From Campylobacteraceae bacterium (lineage in GTDB: Bacteria; Campylobacterota; Campylobacteria; Campylobacterales; Sulfurovaceae): DNA of 34,107 nucleotides. The notes below the pieces were generated by a model. That model made no database searches. It had not been told where the DNA came from and saw only the letters and a list, made by a program, of their open reading frames with translations. This document shows positions 9,006 to 31,575 of this stretch, piece by piece; positions within the stretch are counted from its first letter, which is position 1; each line of letters starts with the position of its first letter. The DNA lies in the NCBI GenBank assembly GCA_027024155.1, contig JALVTE010000065.1, forward strand, positions 1 through 34,107, in the 5' to 3' direction. Both the position numbers and the translations under genes were made by a program.

Positions 9006-10931
9006 ATGTATTTCATCTTCGAAATAGAGTTTAAATCACAAAAAAGTTATATTAAAAATTTAATTCAAAGTTATATTGAACAAATAGGTATAGAGGCAGA
9101 GGTTATACAATCTTCTAAAAAGATATATATAACAATAGATAAAGATAATTCACAAATAGAGAGTTTTTTACTAGGTTTAGAGGCAGTTTTACCAGCTTCT
9201 ATATTTATGGGGCAGAGTAAACACTATTTTATCGATGATAAACCAAATGTTACTGATATAGAAGATTATAACTTACCATTAAATATATCTATGTGTCCTA
9301 ATTGTCAAAAAGAGATGTTTGATATTAGCTCTAATAGATACTACTACCCATTTACATCTTGTAATAGTTGTGGAGGGCAGTTGCCATTTGTGCAAAAGTA
9401 TCCATTTAATAGAAAAAATAGCTCATTTAAATTTTTAAATCCATGCCCTAGTTGTCAAGAGGAGTTAAAAAATAATCCATTTAGAAAAGATTATCAGCTA
9501 ATCTCTTGCTTAGAGTGTGGAGTAAATTTAAAAATGAACGATGGTAAGTCTGAACGCTATGCCAACGATAAAGGAAGCTACAGAAAACTTTTTGAAGTTG
9601 CTTCTAAAGCTATTAGCAAAGATAAAACTATTTTAGTAAAAACCTTAAATGGCTATAGAAAATTCTTTGCCCCTAAAGTTGGTGATAATTTAGATAAAGC
9701 TATACTACTTTTTTGTGACTCTAGCTCTTTAAATTCTAAATTAATGTTAATTCCACAAGAGTTTAATACACTACTAAGTATAGAGAGACCAATTCTTAGA
9801 ATTTCGACTAAATCAGATGACTTAAAAGAGCTCTTTGGGAGTAGTGCATATGTAAAATATCCAGATGATGGCATAACAATACTTTTAGCAAAAGAGCTTT
9901 TAACTTTAGGTATTAAATATGTTTGTTATGAAGAAGTCGAAGCAGACGAGAATGCAGATTTTTTAATAGATTTCGATTTACCAATAGAACCCCAAAAAGA
10001 TACTAAACTTTTTATTAATCAAGACAAAACTCTTTTTGTAAGTGGTGAAAGAATTGTTTATCCGGTAGTGGCAGATAATCCTAAAAAAGTTTTAACAATA
10101 GCGAATGGCTTAGTTGCCTCTATTGTTGATGATACTACTATAATAGACGCTATGGAGAGATTCGAGAGTGTAGATGTTAGAGAGGTTAGGGTACTAGAAA
10201 ATGAACCAATCGAGACAGGGCATAGAAGAGAGCGACGCTTTAAATTAAGAGAGGCTTCTATGCTCTCTGTTTTAAAAGAGCACAATTTAATCGGACAAAA
10301 AGCAGTAGGTGTGCATTTTGATAGCAATTTATATTTTTTATACTATAATGGTGCAAAAGTTGTAGATGTTATAAAACCAATAGAGTTTAATAATAGTAAT
10401 CTATGGGAAGAGATAGCAAAACTTCGTGATGGTTCAGATAGATTGGTTAAAAATTATAAAAATAAGTTTCCTAAAACTTATGATGAGTTAGAGAATTTAA
10501 ATGGTGAAATAGATATTTTTATAATCGCCTCTAAAATAATTGGTTTAAGTAGTGTTGGAATAGATGCAATCTCAAAAGAGGCACTAAACTTTTATGGTAA
10601 AGGTGGTATCGCTATCGATACAAGAATAAAAGATGAACGCTTCGATAATTATGCATTTTTGGCAAGTATTATAAGTTATAAATTAGCAGATGTAGAGCCT
10701 GCCATGTTATGCTATAGCATTTACGAATCGTTTGGTGACTATATAGGAGAGATTATCCCACAAATGAGTAAAAGCCTAGAGACTAGAAATATTATACTAA
10801 GTGGTGCAAGCTTCGCTAATCAAGCTTTATACGCAAGAGTAGAAAAGAATATAGGAATATATAAGCCACTTACCAATATAAACTTACCTATTGGTAAAGA
10901 GAATGCAGTATTTGGAGCTTTGTATCTATAG
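9006..10931 (+). CDS. hydE: HydE: HypF-related hydrogenase accessory protein
   Basis: The 641-residue protein looks like a divergent paralogue of HypF, which follows it directly (its TAG is adjacent to the hypF ATG). Residues 1-80 form a small N-terminal domain without the acylphosphatase arginine motif. Two four-cysteine zinc fingers follow: C97, C100, C119, C122 and C147, C150, C168, C171, with the HypF-like phrase RYYYPFTSCNSCGG. The C-terminal half ends in a Kae1/carbamoyltransferase-like segment (GLSSVGIDA, IILSGASFANQALYARVE). The HxxxH metal motif and the DGTGxGDDG loop of true HypF are absent. It matches the position of hydE in Wolinella and Helicobacter clusters, where it is needed for active hydrogenase as I recall. 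Its exact reaction is unknown. Confidence 0.75.
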   Translation: MYFIFEIEFKSQKSYIKNLIQSYIEQIGIEAEVIQSSKKIYITIDKDNSQIESFLLGLEAVLPASIFMGQSKHYFIDDKPNVTDIEDYNLPLNISMCPNCQKEMFDISSNRYYYPFTSCNSCGGQLPFVQKYPFNRKNSSFKFLNPCPSCQEELKNNPFRKDYQLISCLECGVNLKMNDGKSERYANDKGSYRKLFEVASKAISKDKTILVKTLNGYRKFFAPKVGDNLDKAILLFCDSSSLNSKLMLIPQEFNTLLSIERPILRISTKSDDLKELFGSSAYVKYPDDGITILLAKELLTLGIKYVCYEEVEADENADFLIDFDLPIEPQKDTKLFINQDKTLFVSGERIVYPVVADNPKKVLTIANGLVASIVDDTTIIDAMERFESVDVREVRVLENEPIETGHRRERRFKLREASMLSVLKEHNLIGQKAVGVHFDSNLYFLYYNGAKVVDVIKPIEFNNSNLWEEIAKLRDGSDRLVKNYKNKFPKTYDELENLNGEIDIFIIASKIIGLSSVGIDAISKEALNFYGKGGIAIDTRIKDERFDNYAFLASIISYKLADVEPAMLCYSIYESFGDYIGEIIPQMSKSLETRNIILSGASFANQALYARVEKNIGIYKPLTNINLPIGKENAVFGALYL

Positions 10932-13139
10932 ATGAAAACATATAAAATAGTAGTAAAAGGCATAGTTCAAGGGGTTGGGTTTCGACCTTTTGTTTACCAG
11001 TTGGCTACTAAGTATAAGCTTTTGGGAGAAGTTTTAAATGACTCTTTGGGTGTAGATATTACTATAAATGCTACTAATGAAGAGTTGAGGCAATTTATAG
11101 ATGATTTAAAAAGTAATTTGCCGGTTCTTGCTAAAATAGATACTCTTGAAATTAAAGAGATTGATTTTAGAGAGTTTAGCGATTTTAAAATAGTTCAAAC
11201 TCAAGAGAGTAGTACCAAAACGGCTCTGTTGCCTCCTGATATTTCTATCTGTAAAGAGTGTGAAAAAGAACTTTTTGATAAGATTAATCGCCGTTATCTC
11301 TACCCATTTATTACTTGTACAAATTGTGGGGTTCGTTACTCTATAATAGAGAATTTGCCATATGATAGGGTAAATACCTCTATGAGATTTTTTAAAATGT
11401 GTAAAGCTTGTGAAAAAGAGTATAGTAATCCACTTGATAGAAGGTATCATGCTCAGCCTATTGGGTGTTGGGAATGTGGACCAACTTTGGAATTAAGAAT
11501 TAAGAGTGAAGAGTTAAGAGTTAGTGGGTTGGAGGCTATTGGTGGGGCTGTTGAGCTTTTAAGGAGTGGTGGTATTTTAGCTGTTAAAGGGGTTGGTGGG
11601 TATCATTTGGTTTGTGATGCTACTAATTCTGAAGCAATAGCTAAACTTAGGGAGCGTAAAAGACGACCTACTAAGCCGTTTGCTTTAATGGTTAAAGACA
11701 TAGAGATGGCTAAAGGGGTAGCCAATATTTCTAAAAAAGAGGAGGAGCTTTTAACTTCAAAAGAGCGACCTATTGTTATTCTTAACTCGTCACTCTCAAC
11801 TCTTCATTCTTCTATTGCTCCAAATATTAGTAAGATTGGTTTGTTTTTACCTTATACGCCTTTGCATCTGCTTATTTTAAAAGAGTTAAACCGTCCAATA
11901 GTTGCTACAAGTGCTAATGTTACAGATGAGCCAATTTGTACTAATATAAAGAGTTTAGAGAAGTTACAAAATGTTTATGACGGAGTGCTCGAACACAATC
12001 GAGAGATAGTAAATGGTTGTGATGATTCAGTGCTTATGGTTGTTAAAGATAGGGTTATAACGCTAAGAAGAGCCAGAGGTTATACACCTATTAGTGTTAA
12101 ATTGCCATTTAAATTAGAGCAAAAAACTTTAGCACTTGGGGCAAACCAAAAAAGTACAGTTGCTATTGGCTTTGATAGAGAGGTTATACTATCGCCACAT
12201 ATTGGAGATTTAGACTCTATTGGTTCAGTTGAGTATTATAAAAAGAATATCGAAACACTCTTTAGGATTTATGGGTTTAAGCCAGAGGTAGTCGCCCATG
12301 ATTTGCACCCAAATTATGAAAGTACCAAGCTAGCCAAAGAGTTTGAAGGCGTAGAGTTAAGAGAGGTACAGCACCACTTTGCACACATTTTAGGGGTAAT
12401 GGTAGAGTATAAATTAAAGGGTAAAGTGTTTGGAGTTGCGTTTGATGGTACTGGACTTGGAGACGATGGCAACTTATGGGGTGGAGAGTTTTTAATATGT
12501 GACTATAAAGGTTTTGAGAGGGTTGCTCATATTGAGTATTTTAAGCTACTCGGTGGAGAAAAGGCGATAAAAGAGCCAAGGCGAGTAGCCCTGAGCCTGC
12601 TTTTTGAGTGCTTCGGTAAAAATGCAATAAATTTAAATATACCAACAATAAAAGCATTTAGCCAAACAGAGTTAAATGCACTCTATATTGCATGGCAAAA
12701 AGGACTTAATGCACCGCTAAGTTCTTCTGCTGGGCGACTATTTGATGCAATAGCTTCTCTTGTTGGGGTTAATCAAGTTGTAAGTTACGAGGGAGAGAGT
12801 GGATTAATGTTAGAAGAGTTATATAACAGAGATGAAAAATCTAGCTACCCATTTGAATATACAGATGGCAAAATAGATATACACCTACTTGTAAAAGCTA
12901 TAATAAAAGAAGATAGCAAAAGCAAAGCAGTATCGAAATTTTTTAATACTCTCATTGAAATTATCGCTACAGTTTACAAAGACTACTCTCATCTACCATT
13001 AGTAGCAAGCGGAGGAGTATTCCAAAATAGAGTTTTACTAGAACTATTACTAGAGCGTTTCCCAAATGCCTATATACCAAGCCAAATTCCACCAAACGAC
13101 GGTGGAATTGCCTTGGGGCAAACAGCGTCATTAAATTAA
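10932..13139 (+). CDS. hypF: HypF: carbamoyltransferase for cyanide ligand synthesis
   Basis: The 735-residue protein takes carbamoyl phosphate and ATP and loads a carbamoyl group onto the C-terminal cysteine of HypE. Domains in order: acylphosphatase (GIVQGVGFRPF, R18); two zinc fingers (C107, C110, C129, C132 and C157, C160, C179, C182); a YrdC-like domain (about 200-380, with KGVGGYHLVCDAT and KRRPTKPFALM); and a Kae1-like domain with HHFAHI, AFDGTGLGDDGNLWGGEF and ASGGVFQNRVLLE. All expected motifs are present. Two variable loops (residues 187-198 and 283-294) are encoded by copies of the intergenic heptad repeat, kept open by base changes. The stop codon lies at the start of another such repeat. 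Confidence 0.96.
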   Translation: MKTYKIVVKGIVQGVGFRPFVYQLATKYKLLGEVLNDSLGVDITINATNEELRQFIDDLKSNLPVLAKIDTLEIKEIDFREFSDFKIVQTQESSTKTALLPPDISICKECEKELFDKINRRYLYPFITCTNCGVRYSIIENLPYDRVNTSMRFFKMCKACEKEYSNPLDRRYHAQPIGCWECGPTLELRIKSEELRVSGLEAIGGAVELLRSGGILAVKGVGGYHLVCDATNSEAIAKLRERKRRPTKPFALMVKDIEMAKGVANISKKEEELLTSKERPIVILNSSLSTLHSSIAPNISKIGLFLPYTPLHLLILKELNRPIVATSANVTDEPICTNIKSLEKLQNVYDGVLEHNREIVNGCDDSVLMVVKDRVITLRRARGYTPISVKLPFKLEQKTLALGANQKSTVAIGFDREVILSPHIGDLDSIGSVEYYKKNIETLFRIYGFKPEVVAHDLHPNYESTKLAKEFEGVELREVQHHFAHILGVMVEYKLKGKVFGVAFDGTGLGDDGNLWGGEFLICDYKGFERVAHIEYFKLLGGEKAIKEPRRVALSLLFECFGKNAINLNIPTIKAFSQTELNALYIAWQKGLNAPLSSSAGRLFDAIASLVGVNQVVSYEGESGLMLEELYNRDEKSSYPFEYTDGKIDIHLLVKAIIKEDSKSKAVSKFFNTLIEIIATVYKDYSHLPLVASGGVFQNRVLLELLLERFPNAYIPSQIPPNDGGIALGQTASLN
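11490..11524 (+). repeat. Heptad repeat tract inside hypF (forward)
   Basis: Five TTAAGAR-type units encode E187-S198 (ELRIKSEELRVS). One unit reads GTGAAGA instead of GTTAAGA; the changed base (11508) turns what would be an in-frame TAA into GAA. The tract lies between the second zinc finger and the YrdC-like domain. Confidence 0.7.
11778..11812 (-). repeat. Heptad repeat tract inside hypF (reverse orientation)
   Basis: The plus strand reads as degenerate (AYTCTTA) heptads, the complement of the TTAAGAR family. It encodes residues 283-294 (ILNSSLSTLHSS) in a loop of the YrdC-like domain. At codon 287, where an intact unit would give TAA, the sequence is TCA. With 11490-11524 it forms an imperfect inverted pair within the gene. 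Confidence 0.55.
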
Positions 13140-13291
13140 GAATTAAGAGTTAAGAATTTTTTGGTGTGGTAAGGGTACCATACCCTTGTATAATAAAATC
13201 ATTGCGAAGCAATGTCTCCAAAACTATTCACTTATATATGCGACAAGGTCGTACCTACAATTCTTAACTCTTAATTCTTAACTCTTAATTC
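13134..13291. repeat. Composite mosaic repeat R1 (reverse orientation)
   Basis: Read on the minus strand this is heptad tract, then the B hairpin (TACGAC/GTCGCA), AAGTGAATAG, the C hairpin CATTGC-TTC-GCAATG (plus-strand 13200-13214), TTTTATTATA, then the D hairpin AAGGGTA-TGG-TACCCTT (13171-13187) and a second heptad tract. The same A-B-C-D order occurs at 17374 and 18676. The tracts supply the end of hypF on one side and the last codons and stop of the transposase-like gene on the other. Confidence 0.8.
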
Positions 13292-17373: not shown

Positions 17374-17515
17374 TAGTTTATGGTTATTTGTAGGTGCGAC
17401 CGTGTCGCACAAATAAGTGAATAGTTAAAAGTGAATAGTGAATAGTTTTAAAAACTTCGCTTCGCAATTATTTTATTATAATTGTAGGGTGTGGTGCCCT
17501 TACCACACAAAGGCT
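17374..17515 (+). repeat. Composite mosaic repeat R2 between hypC and hypD
   Basis: In order: heptad-like lead; B hairpin GTGCGAC (17394-17400) with GTCGCAC (17404-17410); AAATAAGTGAATAG; three extra GTGAATA/GTTAAAA heptads; a decayed C hairpin (around 17454-17469); TTTTATTATAATTGTAG; and D hairpin GTGTGGT (17489-17495) with ACCACAC (17502-17508). The order matches 13134-13291 read on the minus strand, and 18676 onward. Confidence 0.8.
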
Positions 17516-18677: not shown

Positions 18678-18815
18678 AATTAAGAATTAAGAGTTAAGAG
18701 TTAAGAGTTGTAGGTGCGACTGTGTCGCACGAATAAGTGAATAGTTTTGGAAACATTGCTTTGCAATGATTTTATTATTGTATTGGCGGTGCTATCACTG
18801 CATAAAACCAATTTA
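18676..18815 (+). repeat. Composite mosaic repeat R3 between hypD and hypE
   Basis: Right after the hypD stop come four TTAAGAR heptads, then B hairpin GTGCGAC (18714-18720) with GTCGCAC (18724-18730), GAATAAGTGAATAG, C hairpin CATTGC (18754-18759) with GCAATG (18763-18768), and TTTTATTATTG. A different D-like segment follows (GGCGGTGCTATCACTGC), related to the hairpin at 32866-32883. It is the clearest plus-strand copy of the A-B-C order. Confidence 0.8.
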
Positions 18816-24340: not shown

Positions 24341-25087
24341 GTGCAAGAGTATTGGGAAATTTATATGAAGAGTTTAGAGGGTAAGCCGGCTTCTATTTTA
24401 TTTAATGCGGGTATTTCGATGGATGTTGAGAATTTTAAATACATCTATCCAACTATTGCTTATATTAAAGTTAAGCTAAAAGAGCCTAAAGAGAATGGGC
24501 TTTTAAGTATAGAAGAAGAGCCTGAGATTATGTTTTTAGAAGATAAGCTAGAGGCTTCTTTAATTAAATTTAGAATTGGTAAGTATGTGGGGCGTATTAT
24601 AAATGATGGATATGTAACATTTCTTTATTATTTGCAATTTACCTATAATTGGCAAGACTTTTTAGAGTATGCTTTAGATGAACATACTGAGTATGAGATT
24701 TCAACAGGCTTCCAAGAAGATAGTGAGTGGAATTATTATAAGAATTTGCTATTTCCAAATGCTAAAGAGTGGCAAATTATCCAAAATCATAAAGTTTGCG
24801 ATGCCTTAAAAGCTAAGGGTGATACGCTAGAGCTTTCAAGAATTATAGAGCATAAAATATATTTTACAAACTCTACACAAGAGCAGAGAGAAGAGCTTTT
24901 AAATGTGCTAAAAGAGGATAAATTTGAAAAACTCGAAGATATAAAGAGTGAAAATGGCGTAGAAGGAGTAGTTATTTTTAGAGATGACAAACCATTTTAT
25001 ACCGATATTGATGAACTTACACTAAAACTTATTGATATTTGTGAAGAGTATGGTGCTAGTTATGATGGGTGGGAAACGAGAGTTTAA
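24341..25087 (+). CDS. DUF695 plus RraB-like domain protein
   Basis: The 248-residue cytoplasmic protein has an N-terminal DUF695-like region (about 1-140; EYWEIYMKSLEGKPASILFN and FLYYLQFTY). Its C-terminal region (about 148-248) resembles RraB, regulator of RNase E activity: QNHKVCDALKAKGDTLEL, RIIEHKIYF, and the closing YDGWET. The fused arrangement is known in many bacteria without a defined role. It starts with GTG at 24341, supported by AAGGAG 6 nt upstream. It lies between two repeat tracts and is probably its own transcription unit. No link to the hydrogenase is evident. Confidence 0.8.
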   Translation: MQEYWEIYMKSLEGKPASILFNAGISMDVENFKYIYPTIAYIKVKLKEPKENGLLSIEEEPEIMFLEDKLEASLIKFRIGKYVGRIINDGYVTFLYYLQFTYNWQDFLEYALDEHTEYEISTGFQEDSEWNYYKNLLFPNAKEWQIIQNHKVCDALKAKGDTLELSRIIEHKIYFTNSTQEQREELLNVLKEDKFEKLEDIKSENGVEGVVIFRDDKPFYTDIDELTLKLIDICEEYGASYDGWETRV

Positions 25088-25275
25088 TTAAAAATTAAGA
25101 GTTAAGAATTAAGAATTGTAGGTGTGGCTGTGCCACACAATTAGAGATATTACAAATTATCCTGTTACGATTTTAGTGCATTGGTGTATTAGTTATTGGT
25201 GTATTGGAGGAGTGTTATATAATTTCTAATATACCAATGACCAATTAACCAATATACTTAGATTTCTAATTTCGC
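25084..25275. repeat. Composite repeat between convergent genes (A, B, then TTATTGG module)
   Basis: It starts at the stop of the DUF695 gene with TTAAGAR heptads, then a B hairpin with changed but still complementary arms, GTGTGGC (25122-25128) and GCCACAC (25132-25138). After a spacer come TTATTGGTGTATTGG units (25180-25207) and their complement, CTAATATACCAATGACC... (25230-25258). The genes on either side are convergent, so the hairpins may serve as terminators. Confidence 0.65.
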
Positions 25276-31410: not shown

Positions 31411-31521
31411 ATGTTTCAAAAATATGCACCATTAATTATTTTAGTACTATTTGCTATAGGTTCTTACTTTATGATACAAGGTATGGAGCATGCTACTGCA
31501 CTTGGACACCCTGTGAAATAG
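31411..31521 (+). CDS. 36-residue single-pass membrane peptide
   Basis: ATG at 31411 has AAGGAG at 31400-31405. The product has one hydrophobic helix (about 7-24; PLIILVLFAIGSYFMI) and a short polar tail ending GHPVK. The TAG stop is part of a GTTAATA tandem repeat. The ribosome binding site and the helix favour a real gene; no function is known. Confidence 0.6.
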   Translation: MFQKYAPLIILVLFAIGSYFMIQGMEHATALGHPVK

Positions 31522-31563
31522 TTAATAGTTAATAGTTAATAGTTAATAGTTGATTGTTGATTG
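31518..31563 (+). repeat. GTTAATA heptad tandem repeat
   Basis: Four perfect GTTAATA units are followed by GTTGATT variants. The tract includes the stop codon of the 36-residue gene. It lies between that gene and the convergent pyrF gene. Confidence 0.8.
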
Positions 31564-31575
31564 TGTGTGTTTAGG

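Follow-up and report, generated by a model that had tools for sequence, protein, structure and literature searches.

Dispersed heptad repeats and GTAG-type palindromes in variable loops of HypF and other enzymes of a Campylobacteraceae bacterium and its relatives

The window analysed here, a stretch of 34,107 nucleotides on contig C65 of a 2.15-Mb, 123-contig Campylobacteraceae genome (G000), carries hypF on its forward strand at 10932–13139. The gene encodes a carbamoyltransferase HypF of 735 amino acids, in which all HypF Pfam domains (acylphosphatase, two zinc fingers, YrdC-like and Kae1-like) score above cut-off. Among solved structures the best match is 3vth (E 5.7e-181), and the alignment to solved structures has small gaps at two of the sites referred to below as loops (1 and 3). 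The closest HypF proteins in named records come from MAGs labelled Nitratifractor sp. (86% identity) and Campylobacteraceae (83%), and others are labelled Sulfurovum; many genomes of our comparison set are likewise metagenome-assembled. Upstream of hypF, at 9006–10931, lies a 641-aa ORF with 35% identity to HypF residues 30–190, i.e. a HypF-like paralogue.

Two tracts within hypF resemble the TTAAGAR heptad arrays that this genome carries between genes. Loop 1 (11490–11524, forward strand), at the junction of the second zinc finger and the YrdC-like domain, is a forward array with the sequence GAATTAAGAATTAAGAGTGAAGAGTTAAGAGTTAG and encodes ELRIKSEELRVS; loop 2 (11778–11812, reverse strand), within the YrdC-like domain, is a degenerate reverse array and encodes ILNSSLSTLHSS. 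A perfect array would give TAA at codon 193 (11508–11510, forward strand) and at codon 287 (11790–11792, forward strand), which read GAA and TCA, respectively, just as the original prediction had it. In the predicted HypF model (mean pLDDT 78.8), loop 1 is a low-confidence hairpin (58–68), and loop 2 (∼73) and loop 3 (∼86) score higher. The loop 3 site occupies codons 464–490 in the Kae1-like part (12321–12401, forward strand), and a clear array is absent from it in this hypF.

The forward tract agrees with a TTAAGAR array at 27 of 28 positions from 11490 (best 35-nt window 33/35, at 11489–11523), the change at codon 193 being the sole mismatch within the best forward 28 nt. For the reverse tract, the agreement is 24/28 at 11784, with a best 35-nt window of 30/35 at 11778–11812. 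Codon-order shuffles of hypF (n = 1000) yielded maxima of 22 forward and 21 reverse, so that both tracts are confirmed as TTAAGAR-like. Synonymous shuffles that kept the protein (n = 1000) went up to 27 forward and 23 reverse, and none of the 1000 shuffles of either kind attained 24 on the reverse side. Since synonymous shuffles reach 27, the forward tract taken alone is partly explained by its peptide and codon usage, and this is the point in favour of a chance origin, i.e. of charged or serine-rich loops that mimic a heptad through AT-rich codons (TTA, AGA, AAG). Unlike the synonymous choice in the forward tract, however, both the reverse tract and the 24/28 identity of loop 1 at lag 7 (shuffle maxima 20 for codon order and 23 for synonymous changes) lie beyond both shuffle types, and a lag of 7 nt is not a multiple of the codon.

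Elsewhere in the window, and at the genomic sites inspected, heptad arrays lie between genes or at gene ends. Eight lag-7 arrays were detected in the window, and only that of hypF is wholly intragenic, although ∼88% of the window is coding; the remaining seven lie between genes or span gene ends. Intergenic arrays often provide the stop codon of the upstream gene, hypF included, whose TAA is part of an array at 13134–13158 (forward strand). Together with an inverted partner at 13259–13291 (reverse strand), this array forms one long hairpin (−49.5 kcal/mol) that encloses a REP-like core. A genome-wide 21-mer search (at most two mismatches) returned ∼16 places, and the 11 inspected outside the window were all intergenic or at the 3′ ends of genes. 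With an exact 7-nt period, several copies and dispersed, mostly intergenic loci near 3′ ends, the TTAAGAR arrays have the properties of heptameric tandem repeats. Two intergenic heptad arrays of the window, at gene 3′ ends (18680–18709 and 25086–25117, both forward), directly abut GTAG-type REPs on the same strand, namely GTAG plus a GTGCGAC/GTCGCAC hairpin at 18710–18730 and a GTGTGGC/GCCACAC hairpin at 25118–25138. As a side observation, GTAG-type palindromes immediately adjoin heptad arrays at 17390, 18710, 25118 and 13254. Adjacency of the two kinds suggests composite elements and, as the heptads run straight into the REPs at 18710 and 25118, both may travel or accrete together. In Nostoc-type cyanobacteria, small dispersed repeats have reportedly been described inside heptameric repeats. 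Y1_Tnp transposases are found in G000 and most of its relatives.

We scanned 70 complete HypF genes of the family in 28-nt windows at a threshold of at least 21/28 identical positions. There were 299 lag-7 windows in three loops and none elsewhere, with 20 genes affected; loop 3 was picked after the first scan, so its share of the 299 is post hoc and the zero covers the gene outside all three loops. At lags 4–6 or 8–13, no window in the loops of the 70 genes reached the threshold, lag 14, the double of 7, being the exception. The loops are naturally variable positions of HypF, and what fills them differs between relatives. The loop 1 TTAAGAR array is common to G018, G025, G162 and G158, and G158 is among the relatives with a more clear-cut reverse array in loop 2. 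Members of other genera have a different heptad (CTCAACG, CCAAACG or ACTTAAC) at loop 2, or else a palindrome that begins with GTAG. At loop 3, here delimited as codons 464–483, many relatives (including G162, G064, G117, G065, G136 and G168) have either heptads or REPs, e.g. (ACTCTTC)4 in G064 and (ACTCCTC)4 in G117. Chance similarity does not predict that a given loop should contain a perfect array of one heptad in one relative and of an unrelated heptad in another, nor the 299-to-0 restriction, and it is refuted by the lag specificity and by the genome concordance described below; we give it virtually no credence.

The palindromes in relatives' HypF loops begin with GTAG, are dispersed and also occur as inverted pairs. 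GTAG at the foot of the hairpin, combined with inverted pairing, characterises the palindromes of the window and of the relatives, and is not seen in the tracts of the present hypF. The lowest-energy hairpin per gene fell within the loops in 15 of 73 cases, a measure too noisy to call REPs by itself, and loose GTAG/CTAC tags gave false positives and were left out of the counts. In three genomes (L073, L063, L108), HypF loop 3 is encoded by yet another family of palindromes (CTTCGACAGGCTCAGG...CTGAGCTTGTCGAAG).

The original prediction read the tracts as repeats inserted into hypF, which should appear as loops absent from or variable in orthologues. Their content is indeed variable, yet the expected extra length is lacking: loop 1 has 25 codons in G000, G018, G025 and the repeat-free G019 alike, and loop 2 measures 18 versus 17 codons, so that neither is longer than in repeat-free orthologues (∼25 and 17–18 codons). 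Because the hypF loops keep this repeat-free length, we are mostly dealing with replacement of a naturally variable linker without net insertion. Copy number does differ between some relatives, with exactly 21 nt between direct repeats distinguishing G158 from G168, and 51 additional nt in G162.

Loops tend to carry the type of repeat that is also found elsewhere in the same genome, be it TTAAGAR, CGTTGAG or GTAG-type palindromes. With hypF copies removed, the five genomes with a TTAAGAR loop contain 18, 37, 19, 15 and 4 TTAAGAR arrays, against a median of 0 in 62 other genomes (Mann-Whitney p 1.2e-5, kinship ignored), and those with a CGTTGAG loop contain 7, 16, 10 and 7 CGTTGAG arrays (p 2.7e-5, kinship ignored). 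G153, G165, G029 and G096 have REP type B (GTAGGTCGGG...CCCGACA) in loops and also at dispersed sites, and the loop 1 REP of G136 hypF is an identical 25-mer to intergenic copies in G000. Concordance is not universal, given that the REP is found only or nearly only in hypF of G028 and G077, and that G035 has many CGTTGAG arrays and none in HypF. Loop types also switch among near relatives: G029 and G030 have 95–96% identical flanks and different repeat families in loops 2 and 3. On a FastTree phylogeny built with the loops excluded, and with repeat types assigned by eye, parsimony requires at least 17, 21 and 17 changes of repeat type for loops 1, 2 and 3, respectively. The idea that repeats act as a source of protein linkers is therefore supported, with loop types that track genome repeats and switch between close relatives, and with other enzymes behaving likewise.

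Ordinary homologous recombination could produce part of this pattern, if HypF alleles were imported from relatives whose repeats had been captured long ago. Two hypF alleles of G158 are 96–97% identical up to loop 1 and 100% beyond loop 2, against 70–81% from one loop to the other; G168 hypF is a chimera, and the divergence of G124 from G125 begins after codon 184. Some of the loop changes are thus due to recombination of larger segments, as in the G158 alleles and the G168 chimera. The G158 alleles (L142, L143), whose contigs both end near codon 335 and which differ mainly between loops 1 and 2, may be strain variants or the result of segment exchange. As a full account, however, recombination seems possible but doubtful to us, because loop types track the genome's own repeats, because the switch at loop 3 between G029 and G030 is clean, with near-identical flanks, and because a single site takes up several repeat kinds and frames, as do many unrelated genes.

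The proposal that such loops are kept open by stop-avoiding changes can be put in numbers. Among 67 in-gene arrays, 30 are open (on a stop-free strand and frame) and 37 are closed, i.e. would contain stops, with 46 would-be stop codons within the 28 nt examined. These codons make up 13% of positions in the closed arrays and take 48 of their 83 mismatches, which upholds the proposal; related arrays are non-independent here, the statistics are conditional on an open gene, and the detection threshold favours regular arrays. Outside the stop codons, closed arrays are as regular as open ones, 17 of 30 of which have 0–1 mismatch. Survival accounts for the absence of stops; what is telling is how little the arrays differ otherwise. 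The codon 193 substitution recurs in the arrays of G018, G025 and G162 and, in G018, also in the DUF7033 gene. As to a repair of the reading frame after insertion, the stop-avoiding changes stand, but a repair step is indistinguishable from survival or arrival of open variants, since open units (TGAAGAG, AGTGAAT) are present outside genes, too, and since closed arrays that were never opened would not be visible in an intact gene.

That the arrays in loops 1 and 2 are inverted relative to each other raises another possibility, namely that they pair in mRNA or single-stranded DNA and are selected for this nucleic-acid role. In line with this, the readable orientations are forward for loop 1 and reverse for loop 2, for heptads and REPs alike, and the intergenic pair at 13134–13291 does form a long hairpin. 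Loop 3, on the other hand, accommodates both orientations, the orientation of CGTTGAG-type repeats is set by the stop-free strand, and within a gene the repeats in different loops are often unrelated and unable to pair (G103, G117, G098), all of which makes selected pairing highly improbable. We also considered loops 1 and 2 as the ends of one mobile element and rejected this, as the intervening sequence codes for the conserved YrdC domain and loop 3 breaks the rule.

HypF is not special in this respect: relatives have the third such loop in hypF, and many other genes are affected. A peptide search with three copies of ELRVKSE gave weak E-values, yet pointed to the genes of a DUF7033 protein and a DegT-type aminotransferase, which in this genus contain the same coding heptads as hypF and show a net length gain (+2 to +16 aa for DegT; ∼+5 aa for DUF7033 versus some relatives). 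At two loops of the DUF7033 protein, the heptads differ from one near relative to the next (TTAAGAG, AGAAGGG, AATTGAT; CCCTTCA, AATTATC, AACCAAA). Further in-frame arrays were found across the family in DnaX, a FrdB-like protein, CysQ, CysC, a nucleotidyltransferase, DsbD, a heptosyltransferase-like GT9 protein, AnmK, MurG and an ACC-deaminase-like protein (the last in the same loop of three genomes), so that repeats of these kinds are in frame in ∼10 other enzymes. The names DnaX, DsbD, MurG, AnmK, CysQ and CysC rest on Pfam matches, the FrdB-like and ACC-deaminase-like assignments were read from sequence with partial or no Pfam support, and long ORFs around relatives' arrays that lacked a Pfam match (L257, L261, L263) were not counted as genes. 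In G065, DnaX (L148) and the ACC-deaminase-like protein (L165) combine heptad-encoded segments with VGRG[AV]PTP, which matches the REP-encoded peptide in loop 1 of relatives' HypF.

Recurrence of ELRVKSE, STLNAQR and VGRGVPTPT in unrelated enzymes might indicate that these peptides are favoured as loop or linker modules, beyond mere tolerance. Their shared DNA explains this recurrence, however, and the same site switches freely among charged, serine-rich and glycine/proline-rich peptides, so we hold selection at the protein level to be unlikely by a wide measure. It follows as a warning that STLNAQR or VGRGVPTPT shared by unrelated enzymes reflects DNA repeats rather than homology. For the peptide STLNAQR, we found no mention in the literature searched, most subscription papers lying outside that search.

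The explanation we favour, and regard as probable by a good measure, is that dispersed heptads and GTAG-REPs occupy, and exchange among, permissive enzyme loops, filtered for open frames. Genomes of the family (with relatives labelled Nitratifractor, Sulfurovum and Campylobacteraceae) carry many dispersed heptad arrays and GTAG-REPs, mostly just downstream of genes, and these repeats would land in, expand within and swap among a limited number of loops in conserved enzymes whose structure tolerates them, HypF having three such loops. Selection would leave only versions that are in frame and free of stops: arrays without a stop in the 21-nt reading cycle stay almost perfect, those with one (such as TTAAGAR, on both strands) carry roughly one change for each would-be stop, copy number shifts by multiples of 3 nt (e.g. 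21 nt, or three heptads), and whole loops are overwritten by another repeat family. What the comparisons show directly is the identity of the repeats, their confinement to loops in HypF, the agreement with each genome's repeats, loop switching and a copy-number difference among relatives, and the avoidance of stops. Transfer would presumably run from intergenic DNA into genes, a direction that our comparisons do not polarise; slippage may alter array length in frame-keeping steps, REP-associated transposases (RAYT) may move the palindromes, and the loops may be near-neutral for enzyme function. As a 7-nt unit is translated into one and the same cycle of seven residues whichever frame is used, such arrays can serve as raw material for proteins irrespective of frame. 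We are evenly divided on the wider reading that loop sequence is supplied by repeat DNA throughout the genome and to this day, with heptads and REPs invading a fixed set of permissive loops in dozens of enzymes and each loop tracking the repeats of its genome over protein descent; here, selfish or slippage-prone repeats would be opened by minimal stop-removing changes and overwritten time and again by whichever family is current. Sister species in which one loop is filled by different repeats, with open arrays nearly perfect and closed ones off by about one base per stop, amount to a natural experiment in the conversion of non-coding repeats into protein sequence.

Several known systems come close. 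Rickettsia palindromic elements (RPE) are known within protein-coding genes (summarised in PMC3733652), and our arrays resemble them as dispersed repeats that are tolerated in frame within conserved proteins. However, RPEs are palindromes inserted as a unit, whereas the hypF arrays lack palindromic structure, are built of 7-nt tandem units, take the place of existing loops with no net change in length and belong to different families in close relatives. A palindromic hairpin unit is found only in the REPs of relatives' loops and not in the TTAAGAR arrays, and a segment absent from orthologues exists in DegT and DUF7033 but not in HypF, where loop length is the same. Intragenic GTAG and CGTC REPs are known, too, with Sulfurovum NBC37-1 listed for both kinds; HypF has no mention in the main text of that paper (PMC3733652). 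Palindromes in the loops of relatives are similar to these in their initial GTAG, inverted pairs and dispersal and in the accompanying Y1_Tnp genes, but the present hypF carries heptads, and REPs and heptads alternate at one and the same loop.

Among heptameric repeats, GGGAATC in Xanthomonas and GGGGA(C/T)T in Nostoc hug stop codons; according to the available portion of the source, these are G-rich and quadruplex-forming in vitro, unlike TTAAGAR, and in-frame, loop-encoding arrays with stop-avoiding changes are not among the features described there (PMC4692102). Marine Beggiatoaceae share heptad arrays with hypF, in their case of TAACTGA, which has stops in all forward frames and is open in reverse, with reverse repeats in 11 ORFs (PMC4679880). 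For the most part, those repeats precede starts or are found at the ends of proteins or in hypothetical ones (PMC4679880), whereas arrays of the hypF type sit in internal loops of conserved enzymes and, where closed, have been opened by single changes. On bacterial loops derived from repeats, our literature search found nothing closer than these three reports and the description of REPINs (PMC3116915). Intragenic REPs and RPEs are thus already known; for internal enzyme loops that are replaced over and over by different families of heptads and REPs, with changes that avoid stops, the search found no precedent, subscription papers being mostly outside it.

Heptads of other sequences were encountered as well. 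In G035 (L238–L267), several families (CGTTGAG, ATTTTGG, GGAATGA, TTGGTCG, GAATGGA) form arrays at one or more loci. In the window, a perfect intergenic array of five AATAGTT units, followed by a hairpin (GGTTAGA...TCTAACC), lies at 31509–31571.
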